This document shows positions 100 to 36,389 of a stretch of DNA of 37,189 nt, piece by piece. The stretch is from contig CALZIH010000001.1 in NCBI GenBank assembly GCA_945787305.1, forward strand, positions 1 to 37,189, read 5' to 3'. A model generated the notes under the pieces. It had not been told where the DNA came from, searched no databases, and saw nothing but the letters and a program-made list of their open reading frames with translations. This DNA comes from an uncultured Desulfobulbaceae bacterium (lineage in GTDB: Bacteria > Desulfobacterota > Desulfobulbia > Desulfobulbales > Desulfobulbaceae). Made by a program: the position numbers and the translations under genes. Numbering within the stretch: the first letter of the stretch is position 1; the number at the start of each line of letters is the position of its first letter.

Positions 100-166
100 G
101 ACAACTCATAGCCGGTTTATAATATTATTTGCTCTAATTCAGAATATGGAGCGTAACATGTCTGTA

Positions 167-196
167 GTCGGTGGCGAGGCATTTTGCGGTACCGAT
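167..196 (+). repeat. Dispersed hairpin element, copy 1
   Basis: gtcggtggcgaggcattttgcggtaccgat: TCGGT/ACCGA arms, same 5' arm as copies at 2085 and 13633(-). Confidence 0.6.
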
Positions 197-279
197 AAGT
201 AAGGCGTTGTGTAACCAATTGCAAGAGAAGGGAATTCTTCATATTGCTCTGCTCTTGTCTTAACAGTTAACGGTTTGGT

Positions 280-1557: not shown

Positions 1558-2019
1558 ATGACTGAACCCAGAAAAAAGAATGTCTACCCGCTAATGATAC
1601 TGCTGATGATCGGCGGGTTTATCCTTTTCTTAGCCTGGTCTGCATTTCAGGCCGCCGGCCTTGGCAGCAAAGTCACCGATCCCGACTATTACAGCAAGGG
1701 GTTGAAATACAATACCACACAGGTTGAGAAACGGGCAGCAGAGGTCCTTGGCTGGAACGTTGAGACCCGGCTCAAGGGACGTAAGCTTGAAATTCGTCTC
1801 ACTGACCAGAAGGGTGAGGACGTTACAGGTGCGGGCGGTTCGCTCTATCTGGCAATTCCCGGTACAGCTGAGAATATTCACCTGCCCCTGCAGGAGGTCA
1901 CTTCCGGCCTATACAAGGTCAGTTTCAAGGACAACATTAGCGGCTCTATCCAGGCTCGTCTTGAACTGGAGCGGGAAGGCGCGCGGCTTTATCGGTTGTT
2001 GTTGCTCAACCTTGATTGA
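1558..2019 (+). CDS. ccoH: FixH/CcoH family protein
   Basis: N-terminal TM segment, DPDYYSKGLKYN motif, position between ccoG and ccoI. Confidence 0.9.
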   Translation: MTEPRKKNVYPLMILLMIGGFILFLAWSAFQAAGLGSKVTDPDYYSKGLKYNTTQVEKRAAEVLGWNVETRLKGRKLEIRLTDQKGEDVTGAGGSLYLAIPGTAENIHLPLQEVTSGLYKVSFKDNISGSIQARLELEREGARLYRLLLLNLD

Positions 2020-2084
2020 CTCTTAAGAAATTCAAAACGCCCTCTGCACAGTACTGAAATTCAATGAATGTTAACCTTTCCGCA

Positions 2085-2113
2085 GTCGGTGGCGCGGCTT
2101 TTGTGACACCGAC
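2085..2113 (+). repeat. Dispersed hairpin element, copy 2
   Basis: gtcggtggcgcggcttttgtgacaccgac with perfect GTCGGTG/CACCGAC arms; preceded by ttaacctttccgca. Confidence 0.65.
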
Positions 2114-2118
2114 AATCT

Positions 2119-4521
2119 TTGATAGCTGGAAATGACCATGATTTCCGTGATGCTTTATATCGAATGAACCTTCCAGAGACCTGCATTCACTGTCAGGGGT
2201 GCCGGGGAGCGTATGCCGTAATCACAGGAGCCGGGCTTGATGCATTCTACGAGAAGAGGGCGTGGCAAGAACCGGGAATACCTGACGGTGCCTATGCAAC
2301 GATCTACACCGATGAATACCTTGAAACCTTTACCCTTGACTGCAATGATAACAGTCGGGAAATTTCGTTTATTGTCTCGGGTATTCGATGTGCCGCCTGC
2401 ATCTGGCTTATAGAGTCCATTCTCGGTAAACAATCGGGGGTTAAGGACGCAACGGTCAATTATGGAACCCATAGGGGACGCGTCCGTTTTGATCCGGAAC
2501 ATACATCACCGGCTCTCATCTTCAAAGCTATCATCAGTTTGGGTTATGTTGTAAAGCCTTTCACCCAGGATGAAGCACGTCGTATGCAGGAACAGGAAAG
2601 CAGGGCTCTGCTCATTCGTTTTGTCACCGCCGCCTTTCTGTCCATGCAGCTCATGGGATTTTCACTGGCGCTGTATGGTGGCTATTTTAAAGGAATAGAT
2701 CCGGAGACAAAGGCGTTGATTCAGTACTTTGCCGCCCTGGTGGCTACGCCGGTGGTCTTTTTTTCCGGGGCGCCGTTTTTGCAAGGCGCTTGGCGCAGTA
2801 TCCTGAACAGGTCGCCGAACATGGATCTGTTGATAGCACTTGGCGTCTTGACGGCCTATTTTTACAGTTTTGTCGCCCTTTTTGTTGGCGGTGAGGTGTA
2901 TTTCGAAACCTCGGCAATGATTATTACCCTGATCTTGCTTGGTCGAATCTTTGAAAACGGTGCCCGCCGGAAAGCCCTTTCCGGCGTAGACAGTCTGCTC
3001 CAGCTTGCACCCGATACTGCTCATCTTGTCCAGGGAGATGAAACGATTCCGGTCCCAAGCAGCCGTTTGCAGGTTGGAGATACTATTCTGGTCCAACCGG
3101 GGGAGCGATTTCCTGTTGATGGGATACTGATGAATATGGAGACCGAAGTCGATGAATCGGTTCTCACAGGAGAAGCAGCATCGGTTCTCAGGAAGCCGGG
3201 GGAAACAGTCTGTTCAGGAGCAATGAATATTTCTACCGCCATACGGGTGGAGGTGGTACAAACTGCTGCCACCTCGTTTATGGCCCGTATTGCTCGAATG
3301 GTTGAGGAGGCGCAAAACAGGAAAGCACCGGTTCAGGGCCAGGCCGACAGGGCAGCAGGGATATTTGTCCCCTCGGTGATACTCATCGCGCTGGCAACCG
3401 GTATCTTCTGGTTTTTCTTCTCTCAAGATCCTGTTGCACCTTTTTTATATGCCGTGTCGGTTCTTGTTGTTGCCTGCCCATGCGCACTGGGTTTGGCAAC
3501 GCCCACTGCAATCCTTGTCGCAACAGGTGTTGCGGCTGAAAAAGGGATCCTTTTTCATGGAGGAGATACTCTGGAGGAAACCGCCCGTCTAACAGTTGCC
3601 GCCTTTGATAAAACTGGCACCTTGACTGAAGGTGACCCGCAGGTGGTAGCAATTGATTCAAACCAGGGTGATGAACGGTCGCTGCTGACCTTGGCGGCAA
3701 GAGTTGAAAGTGGCTCGAGTCATCCCATTGCCCGTGGAATTTTGCGAAAAGCCCGACAGGAAGGAATATACTCAGGTGGCGAGGGAGGGAAGATACTTCC
3801 AGGTAAAGGCGTGGTTTTGGAAACAGCCGAGGGCCTTCTCGCTGCTGGCAACCGTGATTTTATGAAAATAAATGAAATAGCCATGCCGGAAACCGAACCG
3901 TCCATTTTTTCCGAAGTGCATGTAGCTTTGGCCGGGAAATATCAGGGATGTGTATTTCTTGAAAATCGGTTGCGACCGGAAGCAGCCGAGGTCGTCAGAA
4001 AAATCAAACAGTTTGGCTTGCACACCCTTCTCCTTACCGGCGACCATGCACTTTCAGCTAAGCGAGTTGTGGCTGAGACAGGTATTGATCGATATACTTC
4101 CGGCATGAGCCCCCAGGGAAAAACTGATCGGATACGGGAAATGGCTCACAATGGCGAAACAGTACTGATGATCGGCGATGGTGTCAATGACGCTCCAGCC
4201 CTCTCGGAGGCGGCCGTAGGCTGTGCGATGGGGAGTGGGACCGATATTGCACTTGAAACCTCTGACCTTGTTTTAATGCGCAACAATCTTGAGCAGTTAC
4301 CCATGGCGATTGAGCTGGCAAGGAAAACAATGCGGATTATTCGTCAGAACCTGTTCTGGGCTTTCAGCTATAACTTGGTGGCAATACCTCTTGCGACCAC
4401 GGGAAAGCTCGCGCCGGTCTACGCTGCTGCGGCAATGGCTGCCAGTTCCATTCTGGTGGTTGTCAATTCTCTCCGGCTCAAAAGAATTGGCGTGGTGAAA
4501 AACTCGTCAGAGGGTAGGTAA
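2119..4521 (+). CDS. ccoI: Cu-type P1B ATPase CcoI/FixI (start may be TTG 2119 or ATG 2164)
   Basis: CIHCQGC, GIRCAACIW HMA, ACPCALGLATP, DKTGTLTEG, MIGDGVNDAPAL. Confidence 0.95.
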   Translation: MIAGNDHDFRDALYRMNLPETCIHCQGCRGAYAVITGAGLDAFYEKRAWQEPGIPDGAYATIYTDEYLETFTLDCNDNSREISFIVSGIRCAACIWLIESILGKQSGVKDATVNYGTHRGRVRFDPEHTSPALIFKAIISLGYVVKPFTQDEARRMQEQESRALLIRFVTAAFLSMQLMGFSLALYGGYFKGIDPETKALIQYFAALVATPVVFFSGAPFLQGAWRSILNRSPNMDLLIALGVLTAYFYSFVALFVGGEVYFETSAMIITLILLGRIFENGARRKALSGVDSLLQLAPDTAHLVQGDETIPVPSSRLQVGDTILVQPGERFPVDGILMNMETEVDESVLTGEAASVLRKPGETVCSGAMNISTAIRVEVVQTAATSFMARIARMVEEAQNRKAPVQGQADRAAGIFVPSVILIALATGIFWFFFSQDPVAPFLYAVSVLVVACPCALGLATPTAILVATGVAAEKGILFHGGDTLEETARLTVAAFDKTGTLTEGDPQVVAIDSNQGDERSLLTLAARVESGSSHPIARGILRKARQEGIYSGGEGGKILPGKGVVLETAEGLLAAGNRDFMKINEIAMPETEPSIFSEVHVALAGKYQGCVFLENRLRPEAAEVVRKIKQFGLHTLLLTGDHALSAKRVVAETGIDRYTSGMSPQGKTDRIREMAHNGETVLMIGDGVNDAPALSEAAVGCAMGSGTDIALETSDLVLMRNNLEQLPMAIELARKTMRIIRQNLFWAFSYNLVAIPLATTGKLAPVYAAAAMAASSILVVVNSLRLKRIGVVKNSSEGR

Positions 4522-5589: not shown

Positions 5590-8146
5590 TCAGCTCACAT
5601 ATAGATCATCCAACACCGTAAACAGCTTGACTCTGGCATCTTCAAACTGTACCATTTTCGCTTTCGCCTCATCCGTCCGTTCCCTGTTGTACAGGTCGAC
5701 AATTTCTCGGGCAGTGGTATGTACCTTTTCATGATGCAGGCCAAGCGTTGCATATAATGGATGAGCTGTGATTTCCGGCCCAACATTGTCATACCAGCGA
5801 CCGAATTCGCAATCGTGGTGACCCACCACTTCGGAAGCCTGCAACTTCTTCAGTCCCTGCATTACTGCTTCAAGACGTAATTTCCAGTTCAGGTGCGCCG
5901 TCTTAACCGCTCCGATGTCAAACGGCACTTTCCGGAGAGTAAACTGGAGGGCTTCTCGATCGAGCTTGCCGGCGATTGACTGTAACTCCTTTGAAAATTC
6001 GCGGACTTCGATGCTGTGAATGGCAATTTCATTGGCAGTGCCGCTTACCTTGGCAATATCCCTGGACAATTCGTCGTTCACTGTTGCGGCCTGGGCAATG
6101 TTCTGATTGACCTCCTCGATACCGGCTGCGGCCTGGGCAACATTGTCGGCTATCTCCTGGCTGGCCCCGGATTGTTCTCCAACGGCCATGGCAATACTGT
6201 CGACAACTTCACTTGTTTTGTTAATGGTAGCCGTAATGCTGTTGATGACTTTGACCGTCTCATCGGTGGACTGTTGGACGCCGTCAATGCGATCTTTTAT
6301 TTCCCTGGTTGACGCTGTAGTCTGCAGGGCCAACTCTTTAATCTCGTTGGCTACAACGGCAAAACCCTTGCCGGCTTCTCCGGCTCGAGCTGCTTCAATG
6401 GTTGCGTTGAGAGCCAGAAGATTTGTTTGATCAGCGATTTCATTGATTGTTTCGGTCACCTTGTTAATTTCCTCGGCCGATTGCCCTAGTGCAACAACAC
6501 TGTTCGACGCATTGGCAGCTTCTGGAACTCGCCTGATCGGTGTTGGATGCAATTTCACCGATGGTCGATGTCATCTCTTCGGCTGCCGTTGCAACCATGT
6601 TGACGTTGATGCTCGATTCTTCCATGGCGGCAGCGATGGCGTTCATGTTGGTGCTCATCTCTTCAGCTGCATATGTTGTAGTACTTGCCGTTTGCTGCAG
6701 GTCCTCTACGCCGGTTGCCAGCTCTTTAGAGAGTTGGCTCAGGCTATTGGAGGAAAGGTTGAGGGTTCCTGCATCTCCTTTTATCCCAAGGAACAGCCTG
6801 CCAAGTTTTTCACTCATACCGCTAAGAGAATTGGCAAGTTCCCCCACTTCACCATTGGTTTTGCTGGTAAGACGACTGGTAAAATCACCGGCTGCAACAG
6901 TTTCTGCAAAGGAGACGGAATCCTTTATTCCGTTGACGATGAAATAATTGCTAAAAAACCGTACTGCAAAGACAAGGAAAAAGAAGACGACTGTTCCCCC
7001 CATTAAGGCATTAAAAAAGAGCTTGTAGGTGGTGGAGGCAATCTGTTCGGCTTTGGCGGCAGCAGCGGTATCAATAGAATCGATATATACTCCTGTTCCC
7101 AAAATCCAGCCAAGGGGTTCAAAGTAGCGCACGTAAGAGAGCTTGGGCTGTTCCTTGCTTAAACCGTCCGGTGTCGGTTTCGGCCAGTGGTAATCAACAA
7201 ATCCTTCGCCGCTTTTTTCACTGACCTCAACAATTGCCTGGAACAGGTTCTGCTCTTTTCCCATTGCACAATCGTATTTCTTGTCGTCCAGCACCTTGCC
7301 TTCGAGTTCCGGGGCGGTGGGGTGCATTATCATTGTTGGGTATGGTGTTCCTATATCGTTGATCCAGAAATACCCCTTATCGTTGTTATAACGCATTGTT
7401 GCAATATCATGTTTGGATTTTTCCACCGCCTCTGTCAATGCGTCATCTACATAGATTCCTGTGCCAATTATCCAGTCCCATCCTGGGATTAAACGCACAT
7501 AGGAGAGCTTGGGCTGCTCCTTGGTCAAACCGTCCGGTGTCGGTTTCGGCCAGTCGTAATCAACAAATCCCTCGCCGTTTTTTTCACTGACCTCAACCAT
7601 TGCCTGGAACAGGTTTTGCTTTTTTCCCATTGCACAATCATATTTCTTGTCGTCCAGTACCTTACCGTTTAGTGCGGGAACGGTGGCATGCATTACCATT
7701 TTCGGGAATGGCTTGCCGGTATCGTTAATCCAGACATAGCCGGTGCCGTTACTGTAACGCAACTCGCCAATAGCATTGGCGGAACGGGTCCTGGCTTCCT
7801 CCTCGGTGATAGTCCCCTTGAGGGCAAGTTCCCTATTTTTTTCTATGATACTCTGGGCCAGGTCAATGATATTCACCAGGACTGGTCCATATTGCTTTTC
7901 CAGCCACTGTTTATCCTGGCTGTTATTGTAATTGGTCTCTAGGGCTTGATAGGCGATATCTAAATAATTTTTCAGATTTTGCTCGACCTGGATATGTTGT
8001 TCCTTTTTAAAGGTGCTCAGGGAGACTTGTCTGTCTTTTGAAATAATGATATATTGAACAGTTCCAACTGCCAGTGAAAATATAGTCAGCGCCGTGCAAA
8101 TCATGATAAAGAGTTTCGTTTGCAGTTTCATTTTCTTTCCTTGCAA
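5590..8146 (-). pseudogene. Methyl-accepting chemotaxis protein, double Cache_2 sensor + MCP signalling domain + C-terminal CZB zinc-binding domain, interrupted by an apparent frameshift near 6525-6540
   Basis: ORF 6464-8146(-) ends ...[13 protein letters not shown] then loses homology; ORF 5590-6558(-) resumes at [61 protein letters not shown] HxxW..CxFGRWY..HPLY..H..H. Confidence 0.85.
7141..7666 (-). repeat. Intragenic tandem duplication, Cache_2 units of about 366 nt period
   Basis: 7141-7300 and 7507-7666 are nearly identical (about a dozen mismatches in 160 nt by eye). Confidence 0.85.
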
Positions 8147-13058: not shown

Positions 13059-13595
13059 GGCAGGGGAGGGTGGCAGACATGGTATTGTTCATAGTATTCG
13101 CAAGTGATGCATTCCGATAAATATGCTTGCACGCAAGGGATAGTTATTGTTTTTCGTGTTTTTGAGTGGCATTGGACAATGCAGATTACCAATTGCTACG
13201 GCTTTTTACCCCTGCAGCGCAAGGATTACTGACCCTGTGCACAGGTTTAACTATACCACGCCGAAGAAATAATTAGAATGGTTAGGGGTGAAAAAAAGGA
13301 AAAACAGTGACGCTGTGTTACCTTGGGGCGACAGGTCGGGCTTTGTGCAACTGGTAAAGGGCTTGTTTTAAAAGAAGAAAACCTTTCCGGCAGGGAGTTT
13401 GAGCTCGATTTTGCAGGTTGTTCTTTTTTGTTATGACAGGTTTATGTCAATGATCAATGGGGGCGGCATAAGGTGAATTCAATCTTGGTATAGTGGTCAT
13501 ATACTTTCTAATTCAAGGCACCCTCCATCGTAGTCAAAATATATCCTGAGTAATCGATCTAAATTTTGACGCGTGTTTATCTGCATGATATGTCT

Positions 13596-13633
13596 GTCGG
13601 TGTCGTAGTGTCGTACAAAGCCTCGCCACCGAC
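13596..13633 (-). repeat. Dispersed hairpin element, copy 3
   Basis: Minus strand gtcggtggcgaggctttgtacgacactacgacaccgac, arms GTCGGTG/CACCGAC; preceded by acaacctttccgcc as in copy 2. Confidence 0.65.
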
Positions 13634-13706
13634 GGCGGAAAGGTTGTAACTTTTTGTGTTTTCGTAGATTGCGAACGGCGATTTGGATTTTTTACGAGTC
13701 CATCAA

Positions 13707-14309
13707 CTATTCCCGTCTTATTTTTTCGACATCTGTGGTGATCTCGATTTGACCGACGAGGTGATTGTACATTTCTGAGAGTTGATCGCCTTCACCGGCA
13801 TTCAGCATCTGTACTATCTCCTGTAGTTTTTCTGCTGCACCGGGATAATGTTGTTTGCTTGCCAGTTGCAGCCATGCTGCTGCAAGAATCTGTTTGTCTC
13901 TTTCTTTTTCATTGTCCAGGTACAGGATGGCCAGGAGGTACTGAGCCATTGCCCAACCTTGTCTTGCCGCCTGCCCGTACAATTTTTCGGCCTTCTGTAT
14001 ATCTTGTTTTACACTGTTGCCAAAGGCATATTTCATACCGAGATACAGACAAGCTGCGGGTAAGTTTTGCTGAGCCGATCTGGTGAGCCAGAGAATCGCT
14101 TGTTGGCGGTCACCTGCAATGAGGTTGCCTTCGTCATACATCATGGCCAGGCTGAATTGGGCTTGCGCATCCCCCTGGTTGGCAAGAGCAATAGTTTCGG
14201 CGATCAGGTCATCATATTCGCCATTGCTCGTGTAGCCATTCGTCACAACGAGACAGAAGAGGAAGAAGACTAATAAGATTCGGTTTATGGTTTTTGCCAG
14301 GGAGTTCAT
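13707..14309 (-). CDS. Sel1-like repeat protein (start MNSLAK at 14309 or MRKMNS at 14318-14320)
   Basis: QGDAQAQFSLAMMYDEG, PAACLYLGMKYAFGNSVKQD, QGWAMAQYLLAILYLD repeats; N-terminal signal/TM. Confidence 0.8.
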   Translation of the reverse strand: MNSLAKTINRILLVFFLFCLVVTNGYTSNGEYDDLIAETIALANQGDAQAQFSLAMMYDEGNLIAGDRQQAILWLTRSAQQNLPAACLYLGMKYAFGNSVKQDIQKAEKLYGQAARQGWAMAQYLLAILYLDNEKERDKQILAAAWLQLASKQHYPGAAEKLQEIVQMLNAGEGDQLSEMYNHLVGQIEITTDVEKIRRE

Positions 14310-14337
14310 TTTTCGCATGCGAAAAATGAACTCCCTG
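14298..14337. repeat. Perfect 40-bp palindrome without spacer
   Basis: cagggagttcatttttcgca|tgcgaaaaatgaactccctg, 20-bp arms exactly complementary. Confidence 0.95.
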
Positions 14338-14392: not shown

Positions 14393-16207
14393 TCAATTAA
14401 GCAGTTTGAGCAATTCGTCAAGGTGGTGTTTGTCGTTAAGCAGCGTTTTCAGGTTTGCTATTGTTTGCTCTGCATTTGCCTCTTGTAAGCGTACCTGGAG
14501 GGTAACTGCTTTTTTTGTTTTTTTGCCTGTCGGCGTAATGTTGAAATCTTGCTTGTTCGCTTTTAGGCCAAAAATATCGTTGCGTAATTCCTCTACCTTG
14601 CTGTTGAAGGCATGGATATTTCCCTGGGGTTGTTTTCCCTTTTGCTGTTGAAGCAAACGGATGAATGTACTGGCCTTTTGTTTTGAATCGATAGACTTCT
14701 CCAATACACTTTGAACCACTGTTGAACCGATTGCCTTTTTCAGTTGTGGGTGAATATCTGATAATAATTTATTGATCTGTAACAGCTGTGGTCGTGTTGG
14801 AGCAAGAGGCTTGATGATTTCCAGATACAGCGCGTCCCGGTCAGAGGGGTCTCGCAGGGGGGCAAGTATTTCTGCTGCAATGGAGAACTGTAAGGTATCA
14901 TTAATTACATCGGAGAGCATCTCGGCTGATTCTCCCCGTTCTCTGATTTGATTAAGTTTTCTGTATTTATGGATGGTGGACTGTGAGACTTTTTTTCCCG
15001 GTTTTCCTATGCCCAGGGTTTCACCAAACTGATCGGCCAGGCGGGCATTATTCAACCCCATGTCTTTGCTTGCCGATTCTAGAAAGTTTCCGATCTCAAT
15101 GGGGTTAAGGTTACGGCGTTTAGTGTTCTCGGCAAGAGAGATGTTGAAAAAATCTTCGGTGGTAAAGTCTTCCTCATTATAGACCTTTGCCTCTATCCAT
15201 TGCCAGCCCAGGCGACGGATTGCCTGGTATCTCCGGAACCCACAGAGGATTTTGTATCTGCCATCTGTTTTTTGTAAAAGCACCAGCGGGTGGAGGAGGC
15301 CATTTTTCTTTATGGAACGGGATAGTTCATCGATATAGGCTTCTCTGGTTAAATCATGTGAGGTATCGTCACCATGAAGGCGGAAAATATATCGCAGATC
15401 CAGCTTACTGACCGTATCAATACCGTTTGTTGCAATTCGTCTGACCAGGGGCATGGATTCGGCAAACAGTGAAAAGACCTGCGCAAGTTTAATAGCTGTC
15501 TGTCCTGCCTGTTGCTCATCGATGAGTAACCCTCCGTTAAGGGTGAGCAGAAGAGAACGGACACTTGGATCAAAAAAACCATCGACATGGTTTTTTTGTC
15601 GAAACACCTGGTTCAAGCTGTAAGATTCGCGACCACAGAGAGGTGATGCTGTATCGGCAAGAGCGGTTGTAAGTCCTTGATCTTCTGTGGCCACGCGTAT
15701 TTTGGTAAGAAGTGATGGCGCAATGGTAGGGCGATGCGGTCTATCATCCACGCCACGCTCACCCTGTCCATAGCCGAAAATGATGTCTGCCTGGGGGGCG
15801 TTATCCTCTGCTCTCTGGAGAATCAGGACAAGCGGCAAGAGATTGTTTTGGCTGATTTCTTTTTGAAATTGTTGTATTCTCAATAGAAAATCATTGGTCA
15901 CTTTTTTCCGTTGTCGTATTGCCCTGATATCTGCCATGTCAACAATGCGCTGTTTATATTTGGCATTAATGACGGTGTAGCAATGGAGATGCTCAGCAAG
16001 AAGGCGTCCGAGAACGGCCAGTGGAGAGGCTGTTTCTGTTGCATTCTCCCTGTGGGCGCAGGGTGCAATCACAAGGAGATTATTTGTTCCAAGCAGGGTG
16101 TCTATTGCCGGTTTATGTGGCTGATTCAAGGGCGTCCCCCTGGCTGGTGCTTGAAAAGAGCGGTTGAGGAATTCCTGTTCCTGCGGCGGTGATGACCTTG
16201 TTTGCAA
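14393..16207 (-). CDS. ParB-like (N-terminal nuclease/CTPase fold) protein with an extra approx. 270-aa N-terminal domain
   Basis: ILCGFRRYQAIRRLGW (cf. GERRxRA) and AENTKRRNLNPIEIG boxes, followed by HTH-like region; N-terminus resembles N-formylglutamate amidohydrolase family. Confidence 0.8.
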   Translation of the reverse strand: MQTRSSPPQEQEFLNRSFQAPARGTPLNQPHKPAIDTLLGTNNLLVIAPCAHRENATETASPLAVLGRLLAEHLHCYTVINAKYKQRIVDMADIRAIRQRKKVTNDFLLRIQQFQKEISQNNLLPLVLILQRAEDNAPQADIIFGYGQGERGVDDRPHRPTIAPSLLTKIRVATEDQGLTTALADTASPLCGRESYSLNQVFRQKNHVDGFFDPSVRSLLLTLNGGLLIDEQQAGQTAIKLAQVFSLFAESMPLVRRIATNGIDTVSKLDLRYIFRLHGDDTSHDLTREAYIDELSRSIKKNGLLHPLVLLQKTDGRYKILCGFRRYQAIRRLGWQWIEAKVYNEEDFTTEDFFNISLAENTKRRNLNPIEIGNFLESASKDMGLNNARLADQFGETLGIGKPGKKVSQSTIHKYRKLNQIRERGESAEMLSDVINDTLQFSIAAEILAPLRDPSDRDALYLEIIKPLAPTRPQLLQINKLLSDIHPQLKKAIGSTVVQSVLEKSIDSKQKASTFIRLLQQQKGKQPQGNIHAFNSKVEELRNDIFGLKANKQDFNITPTGKKTKKAVTLQVRLQEANAEQTIANLKTLLNDKHHLDELLKLLN

Positions 16208-17525
16208 ATACAGCTCCTTCGGAATCGAGCCTTTCGTCTCCCAGAATCAGTTTCAGGATATCCTCTGTCTTAAGCTGTTCTACCGGCTGGGCCGGTGTCA
16301 TTGTCAATTCATCTTCCCCCTCTATTTTATGGAGCAGCTTACCGCCAATCAAGGTTTCACTCATGGCGGAAATCTCTATTGTTGGAATATCGGCAAGAGC
16401 TGTCCGTAATGTCTCCAGGGTGGTTGTTTGTTGAAGGGAAAAATCGATATAGGCGAGTTGTAACATGTCGTAAGCAAGTTGCAGGCGGCGTTGTGGAGTG
16501 AAAGAGCTGCTTAACAGGGAAATGTGTCTGTCTCTGTTTTGTACTGCATAAGCAAGAGCTGCGCCAAGAAGAAGAAAGATCCAGCCGAGATGCAACCAGA
16601 CCAGAAAGAGGGGGACTGTGGCAAAGGAACCGTAGATGGCATTGTACCTGGAGACGCCGATTTGCAGCGTAATATATAACTGCTGGACTGCAAACCAGGC
16701 AACTGCAGAAAAAAGACCACCTATAAAGGCCGCAGAGGTTTTAACTTTGGCATAGGGGAAAAATTGATTCATAAAGGTCAGGCTTCCGACGATGAATACA
16801 AAGGGAAGACCTTTAAAAAGCATCTTCACCAGCCACTCAGAAGGGATGACAGTTGTGATATATCCCATCATTTTTTGACTTTGCAGGATCGCATCCCCTG
16901 CAAAGGCTACATTCAAGGAGATGGGCAGGAGGATCAGGAGTGCAAGGTAGTCCATGATTTTCCGGCCAATGGGACGGTTTTTCCTGCTTTGCCAGATGGC
17001 ATTCATTGTAATTTCAATATTGTGGAGCATCATGAGAACGACAACAATCAGGCCGACGACGCCAAAGGCACCGAGGGCTGCAAAATTGGTCCGATCCACA
17101 TAGTTAAAGATTATCTCAACACCATTACGGAGATGCACCGTGGCCGGAGTAGGGGCTTGCCGGTCCGTAATATCTTTCTCGGGTTGCTGCACGTCCGGAG
17201 GCGTCGGGTTATCGGTTGGTTGATACTGTTGTGCTCCGGAAGGGTCAATGTTATCAATTAAGCGATAGACTGCTATTTTGAGGTCGTTATCACTGCCCAA
17301 TCCTTTGAGGATGGCTGTACTCATCGCCAGCATGGGAACCAGTGACAGTATTATGGAGTAGGTCAGGGCGGAGGCGCGAAGCGAGATGTCGGACTTGAAA
17401 AAGACGTGAACCACTATCAGGAGAATCCGGACCGCTGACCGGCCACAGGCACGGAACCCTGACTCATCAATACGTTGGGTATCAACCCAATCCATGAGCC
17501 GTTTAGGTAGCATTGAGTTTATCAT
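16113..17525 (-). CDS. YihY/BrkB family inner membrane protein
   Basis: [66 protein letters not shown]. Confidence 0.9.
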
Positions 17526-19674
17526 TTCTTGTTCGATTAACCCATTTCTCTATAATTTCAAAAACAATTTCGCGTTTTATGGGTTTGGTAATATAGTCGT
17601 TCATGCCTGCATCGATACAGATTTCACGATCCCCTTTCATGGCGTTGGCGGTCATGGCGATAATAGGGATCGTGTTGAATCCACGATCCCTGAGTGCTTT
17701 AGTCGCTTCAAGACCGTCCATTTCTGGCATCTGGATATCCATAAGGATAAGGTCTATGTTGTGGGGCGCGGCGGTGAATTGCTCTACGGCCTCCCTGCCG
17801 TTACCACTGCTTTCTACCTTGTAACCGGCCTTGGTCAGAATCAGGGTCGCCAGTTTCAGGTTGACGGGATTATCCTCAGCCAGCAGTATTCGTACCGACT
17901 GCTTCATCTCTTCCCGTACCGAATATTGGGTAATCAGCTTGCCCTTGTCTTGTTGATCCTGCTGCATTGCCACTGGTGCAAGCAGTCTTTCCATGGTTTT
18001 AAAGAGTATTTCCCGTCGGGCGGGCTTTGTAAGAAACGCGTCGAAACCCGCCTCTTTGCAACGATGCGCGTTGCGTTCACTGGAGGAGGTATAGGCCAGA
18101 AGTGGAATGGTTGTGGTGACCGGGAGTTCTTTTTTTAGTCTGTTGGCTAGAGAGTAGCCATCCGGTGTGGGCATTTGAATGTCAAGAATGATCAGGTCAA
18201 ACAGGTCGTCTTGTTCGATGGCCCGTTGAATGATTCCCTCCACCTTACTGCTTTGCTGGGTAGCCGTGACCTTGAGATCTGCAGATTGCAGAATATGCTG
18301 TAGGATACTCAGGTTTGTTGCGTTATCGTCGACGATAAGAACGTGTTTATCGCGCAGTGAAACTCTTTTAAAATCCTTGACCTCCTGTTGTTTGGACTTT
18401 TTCATTCTAGCGGTGAAATGAAAGGTGGAGCCTTTACCGGCAACGCTATCGGCCCATACGTTTCCATTCATCAGGACCGCTATTCGTCGACAGATCGATA
18501 ATCCCAGGCCGGTGCCCCCGTATTCGCGGGTTGTTGACCCATCCGCCTGTTGAAAGGCCTGAAAAATACTCTCCAGCTTGTCTTCGACGATACCTATCCC
18601 CGTATCCCGAACCGTTGCGTGGAGGATGATATGCTCATCGCTCTCTTCTTCAACCTGGATTGCAAGTTCCAGTTCTCCTTCTTTGGTAAATTTGGCCGAA
18701 TTACCCATCAGGTTGACCAACACCTGGCGATAGCGTCCCGGGTCTCCCATGACGTTGGCCGGCAGGTTGTCGTCAATTCTGCATAATACCTCTATCGGGA
18801 GCCCGACAACCTTTGGTCTGATCAAGTCACAGACGTCCTGCGCCGTAATTTCCGGGTCAAAGTCAATGCACTCCAGATCGAGTTTGCCTGCCTCAACTTT
18901 CGAAAAATCAAGAATGTCATTGATGAGTGAGAGTAACGCATCGGCACTACGCTTAATGGTTTGGGAAAATTCTATCTGTTCATCGTTAAGCGTGGTGTCA
19001 AGGAGCATATCCGTAAAGCCGATAATACCATTCATTGGCGTTCGAATTTCGTGACTCATGGCGGCCAGAAATTCGCTTTTCGCAACATTGGCTGCTTCGG
19101 CAGCCTTTTTGGCAAAACGCAGTTCTGCGGTCTGCTGTTTGATTTCCTCCTGCAGTCTTTTGGAATAATTGAGTTGTTGTTCCTGTATTTTGAGATAGTT
19201 TTGTTCGTTTTCCGCCATAATGTCCTGGAACTTTCTTTCCAGAACACTGGCCTTACGGTCAAATTGCTTTTTCTGGATGCGAAGACGGGATGCGGTTGCG
19301 TCTATTTTTTTATTGGCAAGGAATAGACGAATGGCAAGACTAAGGATAGAGACCTCGCCTTGTAATTCCGTTGTCGATTTTGTCGGAGAACCCAGAGTGG
19401 TCAACAGGGAAAGTTGCAATTCGGGTACGAAAAATAGAATATATTCCTGATCCTGGTAGGAAATCAACCCCTCGGGAACCTCTTTCCCATGTTGGAGAAT
19501 CAGTCCTATTGCCTGATCGCTTTGTAATGGAAATCGGGGCGAGGCCAGGTGATTATTTTTTTGATCATAGAGGAAATATTGCCGGTCCTTGGTTTCCTGC
19601 TCCAGGTGAGTAAGCAGATCGGTTAGTTCTTGGTTGGTGTCGACTATATCTGAAAAGAGCGAATGCAATGCCAT
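17503..19674 (-). CDS. Hybrid histidine kinase with two C-terminal receiver domains
   Basis: [25 protein letters not shown] HisKA, HATPase [13 protein letters not shown], receivers [12 protein letters not shown] and [13 protein letters not shown]. Confidence 0.95.
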
Positions 19675-19682
19675 GGGGTGCC

Positions 19683-20525
19683 TCAGCTTCCGTAAAGATT
19701 ACGTACCCGTTCAATTTCTTCAGGAAGATCTTCTGCAAGAACTTTGTACTCCTCAACGCTGTGTTGAATATGTTCCGTTAATTGGCTGGAGAGGTGGACA
19801 ATAACCCCCTCTTTCACGGTATTTTCCAGTTGGCTGATGATGTATTCGCTTAGCTGTAAAATGCCGGTGGGTGATTCCGGAGAAATATCTTCCCTGGCCG
19901 TATGGTGGTCACGGATAGCCTCGCATAGCGGTTCCGGCATCTGCCATTCTTGAGCCATCAGGTAGCCGATTTCACAGTGATCTGTGCCTATATGCTCCTG
20001 TTCAAGATCAATGATGGATGGCCCGCCATTTTCAAGATCGTTGTACATCGCAAGGAATGGTTCCTGAGCGCCTTGCCATTCAACGATTAGTCCAATATCA
20101 TGAAGTATGCCGGAAAGATACGCATCGTCGCCGTTGATGGAAAAGATGCGTTCAGCAATCATTTTGCTACAGATTCCTGCAGCCGCACAGTGGATCCATA
20201 ATCGGTCGTGGGAAAAAACAGTATGTTTTCCACTGGCTGTAAACATACCCTTCAGGGCATCAGTCACAGCAATGTTGTGAAGGTTTCTCATCCCAAGGAG
20301 GGCAATGGCACGGGAGACGGAATCAACCTTGTGGACCAGACCATAATAGGAACTGTTGACAAGGGTGAGTAAGCGACCAACGAGGGCTGGATCCAGACTG
20401 ATGATTTCTTCAAAATCGGCCAAGGTTGAGTTTTCGTCATTAATCAGTTGGGCCAGTCGGGTAACGATATGAGGCAGGGTGTTGCCTCTTTTGTATTTTT
20501 TTATCAGTTTGGCGGCGGTGGTCAT
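19683..20525 (-). CDS. HDOD domain protein
   Basis: [62 protein letters not shown]. Confidence 0.9.
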
Positions 20526-20975: not shown

Positions 20976-22373
20976 TTACAGTGGTTTGCGTTTGGATCTA
21001 TCCCGCAACACGATGATGGTTCTTTGTTGTTCTGCTGTTTTCCCTACCGGCAGTACCAGCTTTTGGCCAACTCGGATAGTCGCTTTGCGGTTCAATTTGT
21101 TTGCTCGAATAAGGTCTCGAGCAGAGACATCAAATTTTCGAGCGATTGAACCGACGGTGTCTCTTTTTCTCACCGTATAGTGCCGGCCCTGGAGTTGTTG
21201 AGCGTGGTAAAATTGTGAGCCCATTTTTCCAACCCGCTGTCGGGTCAATTTTGTGGCCGGCAAGCGCAGGAGGTAGCCCTTGGGAATGAATTTCTTCCCG
21301 TTGAGCACCGGGTCGCGAAGGGCCGGGTTGAGAAGGGCAAAGTCTTGGCGGGAAAGGCGGAAATAGCGGCGAACCCCTTCGGTTTCAGCATAGTTTTCCA
21401 TTCGTAAGCTGATGGTTGCTGAAGGGCGATCCCGGATGAGAGCAGGGTCTTTTTCCAGTTGCCTGGCGACCCGAAGTGCTGCTACAAATTCGGAGTAAAA
21501 GTTGCGGGCAGCAAATTTGAAAATTTTTGTTCGGTGATTTTTAAATATATTTTCATAGGTTTTCTGCTTGCCCAGTGCTCGAACCATGCCCGGCCGACCG
21601 TAATTGTAGGCTGTCAATGCCAACGGCCAGCTCCCTAACTGATCGTAATTGGTTTTTAACAGCCTTGCTGCGGCCTGGCTGGCAAGCATGGGGTCATAGC
21701 GTTCATCGATTACATTGTCGATGGTCATGTACCTTTTTCCTGTCGCCCGGGTAAACTGCCATAGACCGATTGCACTGGCTTTGCTGTGGGCTTGCAGATT
21801 GAAGGAGGATTCGACATGGGGTAGATACGCCAATTCTATCGGCAAATTATGAGCAAGAAAAATTGCCTGGATATCCTGCATATATCTTCCTGAACGGATG
21901 ACCCCCTGGAGAAAGCGGTCCTTCTGACCAATCTGGAGCCTGATGTTATCTTTGGCTTTTAAATATTGAGGATGTTTTTTTTGTGAAAAAAGAGCGGCTA
22001 ACTGTTTTTCTTCCTTGGTCCGGGGTGGTTTTCCGTGGCCGAGGTCGGCCATGATTTTTTTGTATCGATGGCGGGCCAACTTGATCAGCTTTTTATTGAT
22101 ACGACCAGATCCCGGAGTGTTCCAGTCGACAAGGTCGATTACTCCGTATACGAGGCTAAGGTCGTTTTTGTCGTGGAAAATTCCTTGGCGGCTGGTGTAG
22201 GTGCCGTATACTTCTTCCCAGAAATTGACGTTCGGTGCAATGACAGGATATACAGGGAAACGAACGGGTTGTTCCGCCTGTCCTTTTGTCGCTGTGAAAA
22301 GGAGAAACAGACAGAGAAAGGTGATGAATATTCTGTGGAAAAGGACTATGTGTTTCGGGTGGATAATCACCAT
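20976..22373 (-). CDS. MltD-type membrane-bound lytic murein transglycosylase with LysM
   Basis: LPIELAYLPHVESSFNLQAHSKASAIGLWQFTRATGKRYM; LysM YTVRKRDTVGSIARKFDVSARDLIRANKL; ATG at 22373. Confidence 0.92.
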   Translation of the reverse strand: MVIIHPKHIVLFHRIFITFLCLFLLFTATKGQAEQPVRFPVYPVIAPNVNFWEEVYGTYTSRQGIFHDKNDLSLVYGVIDLVDWNTPGSGRINKKLIKLARHRYKKIMADLGHGKPPRTKEEKQLAALFSQKKHPQYLKAKDNIRLQIGQKDRFLQGVIRSGRYMQDIQAIFLAHNLPIELAYLPHVESSFNLQAHSKASAIGLWQFTRATGKRYMTIDNVIDERYDPMLASQAAARLLKTNYDQLGSWPLALTAYNYGRPGMVRALGKQKTYENIFKNHRTKIFKFAARNFYSEFVAALRVARQLEKDPALIRDRPSATISLRMENYAETEGVRRYFRLSRQDFALLNPALRDPVLNGKKFIPKGYLLRLPATKLTRQRVGKMGSQFYHAQQLQGRHYTVRKRDTVGSIARKFDVSARDLIRANKLNRKATIRVGQKLVLPVGKTAEQQRTIIVLRDRSKRKPL

Positions 22374-22697
22374 GTCGGTCTTGACGATCCGATGGGTTGC
22401 TGAGGGTTTCCGGCATGTTGAAAATATCCTAAAGGTTGTTCGAAGAGGAGGTTGGAAAGCTGCACTTTTTCCCATTGCATTTACGCGAAGTTTCGGAGAT
22501 CCTTGTAGCCCGTATGAAGTTTTTGTTTTTGAGATCAACCGGATGTTTTTTAATTATTATATAATGTGAAGGGGTTAGGGCTGCATGGTCTTGAGGATAA
22601 ACTCTCCAGTAGCCTACAATGATAATATCTTATCACAGAGCAGACAAGAAGAAGAAGGAAGTTTTCCGTATCTTTCAACTATTTTTTTTGCGCATTG

Positions 22698-35567: not shown

Positions 35568-36389
35568 GTGAATCCGCTTGAACTTATTGCCCTGACCCCT
35601 AAGAGCAACTGCGGAAAGTGTGGGCACCCGACCTGCCTGGCCTTCGCCGTTGCCGTGACCAAAGGAGGAGCGGCGGCAACCGGCTGTCCCTTCCTTGATG
35701 TAACAGCGTTGCCCGCCGGAATTGGTGGAGGAAGTGAAGAAGGTGGCCTGCCGGCAGTGGAGCGTGGGCAGGATGAACGAGACATGGCCCTGGTGGCCCA
35801 CCTGAAATCCAAAGTCAGAGATCTGGATTTTCAGAAGTTGGCGGCAAGGCTTGGTGCCCAGTGGTCACCTGATGAGCCTGATTGTTTGCGCTTTCATTAC
35901 CTTGGGCGCCGGGTAGTGATGGGGTGTGATCAACTGGTCGTCGATGGCCGACAGCTTGTAGACCCCAGGGATCAGATTTTACTCTATAACTATGTTTCCT
36001 TTGGTGGTGGTCAGGTGCCTGATGGTACTTGGGTAGGTATGGAAAGTCTGCCTAATTCCATTTCAAAAATTCGCACACTGGCCACCTATTGTGAGCAGCG
36101 GATTGCAGAGCGCTTCTCCGGTCGTGGTGGACGACTGCAGGAACTCTGTCGGCTGACTGGGGGAGAGCAAGGTCCAACCGATCAAAGTGCTGATACCGGT
36201 ATGATCATACCGGTATTGCCCTATGTACCGTTGTATCTTCTTTTCTGGGACCATGAGCCGGAAGACGGGTTTGAGGCAAAGGTAAAGGTATTGTTTGACC
36301 ACAATGTTATGGATTTTTTAGACCTAGAATCGTTGGTTTTTGCTGCCGAGCGGCTGGCTGATCGGTTGGCGGAGTTGGACCAGGAATGA
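35568..36389 (+). CDS. Fe-S cluster (CxxCGxxxC..) + DUF3786 domain protein
   Basis: NCGKCGHPTCLAFAVAVTKGGAAATGCP; C-terminal LPYVPLYLLFWDHEPEDGFEAKVKVLFD. Confidence 0.8.
   Translation: MNPLELIALTPKSNCGKCGHPTCLAFAVAVTKGGAAATGCPFLDVTALPAGIGGGSEEGGLPAVERGQDERDMALVAHLKSKVRDLDFQKLAARLGAQWSPDEPDCLRFHYLGRRVVMGCDQLVVDGRQLVDPRDQILLYNYVSFGGGQVPDGTWVGMESLPNSISKIRTLATYCEQRIAERFSGRGGRLQELCRLTGGEQGPTDQSADTGMIIPVLPYVPLYLLFWDHEPEDGFEAKVKVLFDHNVMDFLDLESLVFAAERLADRLAELDQE

Follow-up and report, generated by a model that had tools for sequence, protein, structure and literature searches.

Among the described systems, chromosomal ParB-parS (ParABS) has in common with the locus reported here a ParB_N/CTPase-type domain, the motifs G-x-R-R and EN-x-x-R-x-x-LNP, and a short palindromic site. 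Noc and its sites, NBS (PMC8429893, PMC7383237), provide a second point of reference, as an orphan ParB paralogue that has no ParA and that has its own palindromic site unlike parS, which is also the arrangement proposed below. KorB-OB and VirB-virS (PMC11790492, PMC10770331) are ParB-type clamps that regulate genes from a distal site, a likeness that would extend to the present case if binding holds. Orphan ParB-type proteins are widespread and most are without a known site. A 2025 survey of the ParB-CTPase fold described orphan ParBs with lineage-specific extra domains (PMC12704722).

The window, by which is meant the whole stretch of 37,189 nucleotides analysed here, comes from an uncultured Desulfobulbaceae bacterium and carries a long perfect palindrome between a gene for a Sel1-repeat protein and a ParB-like gene. 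The palindrome is best explained, with a probability of roughly three in four, as the predicted loading site of the adjacent orphan ParB-type protein, which would have been lengthened in this lineage by template-switch mutation.

A perfect palindrome of 40 bp

The sequence CAGGGAGTTCATTTTTCGCATGCGAAAAATGAACTCCCTG occupies positions 14298 to 14337 (no strand assigned) and has arms of 20 bp with no spacer and no mismatch, exactly as the preliminary description had it. The accompanying claim that such a structure is beyond chance in 37 kb was also sound, as about 3e-8 perfect arms of at least 20 bp are expected in the window from its base composition, and dinucleotide shuffles did not yield even one match to an arm. 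The 40-bp palindrome is thereby confirmed as real and not a chance occurrence. It consists of an 18-bp core at 14309-14326 flanked by two outer extensions of 11 bp (14298-14308 and 14327-14337).

On the minus strand, the Sel1-repeat protein (13707-14318; PF08238, E 3.9e-14) has a signal-peptide-like N terminus (MRKMNSLAK...) and in-frame ATGs at 14318 and 14309. The palindrome covers both of these candidate starts, as had been proposed, although the first lies at 14318, the very centre of the palindrome, and not at 14320. The start is probably the central ATG, and an MRK start at the centre of the site can also be read in two relatives (G031 and G023).

The palindrome is present as a single copy in its own genome, a draft of 461 contigs, which tells against a dispersed repeat or mobile palindrome. 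No tRNA was found that would make it a tRNA-linked attachment site, and there was no PADLOC match to indicate a defence system. A viral origin was set aside, as the viral contigs held no relative of the ParB-like protein and only two of them held the 18-bp site; for a plasmid origin, none of the matches listed covers even 30% of the ParB-like protein and all are below 60% identity. A second perfect palindrome, ATACCGGTATGATCATACCGGTAT, of 24 bp, was seen at 36193-36216 inside a coding ORF (35568-36389, plus strand); about 0.002 palindromes of that length are expected per window.

The core travels with a ParB-like gene

The core, TTTTTCGC-AT-GCGAAAAA (14309-14326, no strand assigned), is made up of half-sites at 14309-14316 and 14319-14326 around a central AT at 14317-14318. 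Another genome of the same genus (G003) has its own palindrome near a Sel1 relative, GGCACCTGTTTTTCGCAGGCGAAAAACAGGTGCC, in which the centre is identical and the outer arms are different. The centre pattern TTTTCGCNNGCGAAAA matches once in each of 7 other genomes of the genus and also in some of the family, and these matches always adjoin the same kind of gene, save for one extra match in G036. That gene encodes an orphan ParB-family protein, at 14393-16207 on the minus strand of the window.

Across the order, the ParB-like gene is present in 29 of 263 genomes, and TTTTCGCNNGCGAAAA lies 1-107 bp past its stop codon in 28 of the 28 carriers with an intact 3' end; in G004, where the match to the gene ends short of the 3' end, no site was found. 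The pattern occurs in only 8 of the 234 gene-less genomes, which is chance level, with a reversed control matching 15 genomes. Fisher's test for the co-occurrence of gene and site gives 8e-31, a value that overstates independence because the genomes are related: the 28 carriers are kin and do not represent 28 independent events. With the shorter pattern TTTCGCNNGCGAAA, the split is 28/28 gene carriers versus 0/10 of the gene-less genomes tested. All 28 carriers have the 18-bp palindrome TTTTTCGC-NN-GCGAAAAA with its inner 16 bp exact, and throughout the 56 half-sites of these 28 sites positions 2-8 from the centre are invariant, while the 2-bp centre is mostly AT. Most genomes have a single site, most of those in genus g8 have two and G107 has three; secondary sites with up to two mismatches are only slightly more frequent than with the reversed control.

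The ParB-like gene is part of a conserved block on the minus strand with the order MltD-like, 112-aa protein, HDOD, hybrid kinase, YihY, ParB-like, site. Its first gene encodes an MltD-like lytic transglycosylase with LysM repeats (20976-22538; cluster C2, in 18/21 loci), and is followed in the same block by genes for an HDOD-domain-like protein (19683-20525; cluster C4, 17/21 loci) and a hybrid histidine kinase (17503-19674; cluster C0, 21/21 loci), the names or functions of all three being read from sequence. A gene for a YihY/BrkB membrane protein (16113-17525; PF03631, E 3e-46), which is a neighbour in 18/21 loci, immediately precedes the ParB-like gene and overlaps with it. Judged from gene clusters, the 21 neighbourhoods share no ParA-like neighbour.

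Natural variation in this block shows which gene the site belongs with. Two genomes (G074 and G057) retain MltD-HDOD-HK-YihY but have neither the ParB-like gene nor the site, and in a third (G028), which also lacks both, YihY is directly followed by Sel1. Which genes come after the site also varies: some genomes have Sel1 there, and others have aldo/keto reductase, GAPDH or different genes again. It is thus the ParB-like gene, and not Sel1, that the site accompanies, the core being conserved with the gene upstream of it. Because it travels with this ParA-less gene of ParB type, the core is most likely the loading site of the encoded protein and not a Sel1 switch, and of the options listed in the preliminary description, a protein-binding site fits best.

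Genus g8 adds a more distant case. In 8/8 gene-bearing genomes a further TTTCGCATGCGAAA lies within or beside the stretch that separates glmS from an RND efflux operon (loci L186-L190 and L176-L178), with flanks that cannot be aligned, and this second site is absent from 7/7 gene-less g8 genomes tested. A remote, conserved site tied to the presence of the gene is the pattern that would be expected of a binding site for the ParB-like protein. The glmS-RND efflux copy in g8 may possibly regulate the efflux operon.

The ParB-like protein and its predicted site

The ORF spans 604 aa from a TTG at 16207, but the start is probably the TTG at 16129 after AGGGGG, giving about 578 aa and an overlap with the end of YihY; family members are about 580-600 aa long. 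The ParB_N domain (PF02195, E 5.7e-11 here) was found in 25/25 members, the TIGR00180 score is 67 bits against a cutoff of 58.45, and the best PDB match is Noc 7ng0, the closest solved chains being those of Noc and ParB. In an alignment of the 25 members, the nucleotide-pocket motifs C-G-F-R-R and L-A-E-N-T-K-R-R-N-L-N-P are nearly or fully invariant, and would bind CTP or another NTP. The recognition helix could not be placed, as HTH_ParB matches are weak and limited to 5/25 members (best E 0.003) and neither structure model is good across the ParB region (pLDDT mostly 25-55). Judged by its sequence, the protein is a member of the ParB family; its different site and the lack of a ParA neighbour set it apart from canonical ParABS, and the number of sites, one or two, from Noc as defined.

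No Pfam family matched the N-terminal ~210 residues (15443-16105, minus strand). A low-confidence model of this part resembles Atu2144, the gamma-PGA hydrolase YnDL and amidase-3 folds, which is offered as a lead only; Atu2144 is one of the N-formylglutamate amidohydrolase-like proteins. Members of the family turned up in this order alone, with none outside it among 396 sampled genomes of the phylum, and those relatives that have names are deltaproteobacterial and Desulfobulbaceae metagenome bins.

The predicted target DNA of the ParB-like protein is TTTTTCGCATGCGAAAAA. The protein's putative helix-turn-helix, acting as a dimer, would bind the two GCGAAAA(A) half-sites, after which the binding of CTP or another NTP would close a clamp that could slide into the flanking DNA, as do ParB, Noc, KorB and VirB. 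Such a protein would more likely organise or regulate its own region than segregate chromosomes, because there is no adjoining ParA and only one site (two in one genus).

A canonical ParB and its site are found in these genomes as well. Canonical parS, TGTTTCACGTGAAACA, is present at least once in all 28 carriers, so the ParB-like gene and its site form a distinct second pair, and ParB-type matches of about 300 aa occur elsewhere in the carrier genomes. In the genome of the window, canonical parS lies about 1 kb from canonical parB. The new half-site GCGAAAAA agrees with the parS half GTGAAACA at 6/8 positions, and the new site adds a 2-bp centre. In three single-contig genomes the site is 0.77-0.91 Mb from canonical parS, and is therefore not part of a parS cluster. 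A separate observation concerns G107 (single contig, 5.08 Mb), where TTTTTCACGTGAAACA, which differs from canonical parS by one mismatch, or its complement occurs at 17 dispersed positions, versus 0-1 such near-copies in the other genomes.

Origin of the long arms

The arms of the 28 sites fall into two classes: 17 sites have arms of 8-11 bp and the other 11 have arms of 14-32 bp. The 120 extension pairs include no G:U and no mismatch, and past the first mismatch pairing drops to 0.23, versus 0.247 by chance. The outer extensions are not conserved: from one clade to another the arms show no relation in sequence, and they stop abruptly, and the protein tree requires at least six gains or losses of long arms, which occur in several clades. 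The most informative comparison is that of the sisters G063 and G021, between which the flank beyond the core is conserved, but the gene-side 13 bp of G063 are the inverted copy of that flank, with the ParB coding sequence past the replaced arm unchanged. Such an in-place replacement is a signature of template switching, through which a perfect inverted repeat can arise in a single step (PMC8794818, PMC7202029). A nascent strand stalled at the short palindrome would fold back on itself and use one flank as the template for the other. The arms would thereby grow, in perfect pairing and with arbitrary sequence (here by 11 bp on either side), and the Sel1 start inside a hairpin would be a by-product of this lengthening. 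For the window's own palindrome, the event is proposed by analogy with the G063/G021 pair.

The arms could instead be kept by selection for dyad symmetry in the DNA, for example as a longer protein site or a cruciform, with the core still a ParB-type site. Long arms do recur in several clades, and G007 and G002 have a common palindrome whose arms are perfect despite four two-sided changes, which either repeated switching or selection for symmetry would explain. This reading is nonetheless doubtful, given that 17/28 sites, including 7/8 in genus g8, do without long arms and that the arms of different clades are unrelated in sequence and length and end abruptly. The sites provide a natural series of palindromes of varied length around one conserved site, with which to ask whether short palindromes bound by protein seed template-switch mutations.

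Other readings of the site

An intergenic site could act on either neighbour, and binding by the ParB-like protein is itself a prediction, so the palindrome might be the operator of another DNA-binding protein encoded elsewhere, with the ParB-like gene a mere neighbour. The probability of this is low, as the site comes and goes with the ParB-like gene throughout the order and the distant second site of g8 is missing too when the gene is missing.

The preliminary description had also raised a fold-back artefact of sequencing or assembly. For the core this fails, because it recurs in 28 genomes; what could still be said is that fold-back in library or assembly had extended the arms around a genuine short palindrome. 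Three single-contig genomes and a 20-contig genome all have 8-bp arms, and long arms are confined to assemblies in more pieces (11/24, compared with 0/4; probability by chance about 0.12). Against this, the arm of G063 was swapped between flanks that are unchanged in G021, a read that had folded back would not continue into the right sequence on the far side, and long arms with differing sequences are found in many separate assemblies. The arms are thus unlikely to be artefactual.

If the palindrome acted as RNA, it would form a hairpin that switches or tunes the translation of Sel1 or is cut by RNase III. The predicted fold does bear out the earlier suggestion that the initiation site would be buried in the mRNA, with an 18-bp stem and a 4-nt loop over both ATGs (-35 kcal/mol for a 138-nt segment, z = -4.4), and G003 is also long-armed near its Sel1 gene. 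The comparison of orthologous Sel1 loci, however, went against a translation switch: the arms are just 8-9 bp beside the Sel1 relatives of G012, G031, G011 and G023, and other genomes retain the core with a convergent or unrelated gene as its next neighbour. Together with the lack of any G:U or mismatch among the 120 extension pairs, this makes a function as RNA improbable. As for a riboswitch or other known RNA, no Rfam family matched at the gathering score and the lower matches were far under threshold. Finally, a bidirectional intrinsic terminator, related to the combined terminator and leader proposed earlier, would suit a perfect hairpin that immediately follows the final gene of a conserved block, but is highly improbable, there being no U-run past the stem, no T-run in the flanks and no terminator call at the site, while such an element is not expected to conserve a 16-18-bp sequence and the site is absent without the ParB-like gene although the operon end remains.

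Other features of the window

Outside the main genes, three diverged copies of an element of about 130 bp were noted at 100-230 (plus), 2010-2130 (plus) and 13580-13710 (minus), with AGTCGGTGGCGAGGC and CACCGACA in common. The chemotaxis-receptor gene at 5590-8146 (minus) apparently has a frameshift near 6464-6558 that divides it into two overlapping ORFs, and its sensor region contains a tandem duplication (7128-7410 and 7494-7776, 83% identical).

Comparison with known systems

Placed beside chromosomal ParABS, the present pair differs in having no ParA neighbour, in its other 18-bp site with a 2-bp centre, in the length of its protein (~600 aa with an extra N-terminal domain) and in its coexistence with canonical ParB and parS. 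The sites of Noc are scattered round the chromosome, whereas here there are one or two per genome, and the half-site and spacing differ. Compared with KorB-OB and VirB-virS, the pair is not plasmid-borne, its site is at the 3' end of its own gene, and no KorA-like partner was identified. As to the arms, quasipalindrome template-switch mutations (PMC7202029, PMC8794818) likewise give perfect inverted copies of an arm in one step, but here they would recur, in several lineages, around a conserved predicted protein site.

A tentative and wider proposal is that of a ParA-less, Noc-like second ParB system with an amidohydrolase-like N-terminal domain, co-encoded with the lytic transglycosylase, hybrid kinase, HDOD and YihY proteins, which might load at just one private site, where its own operon ends (and in one genus also at the glmS/efflux site), and couple chromosome position or gene expression to growth of the cell envelope. 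What has been gained more directly is that an uncharacterised orphan ParB family is now paired with a concrete predicted binding site, so that its function becomes directly testable. The orphan ParB-CTPase-fold fusions of the 2025 survey (PMC12704722) share with this protein an orphan ParB joined to a lineage-specific extra domain; the main text of that survey mentions neither palindromes nor Desulfo- lineages, and relative to the fusions it describes, the new element here is the predicted cognate site.
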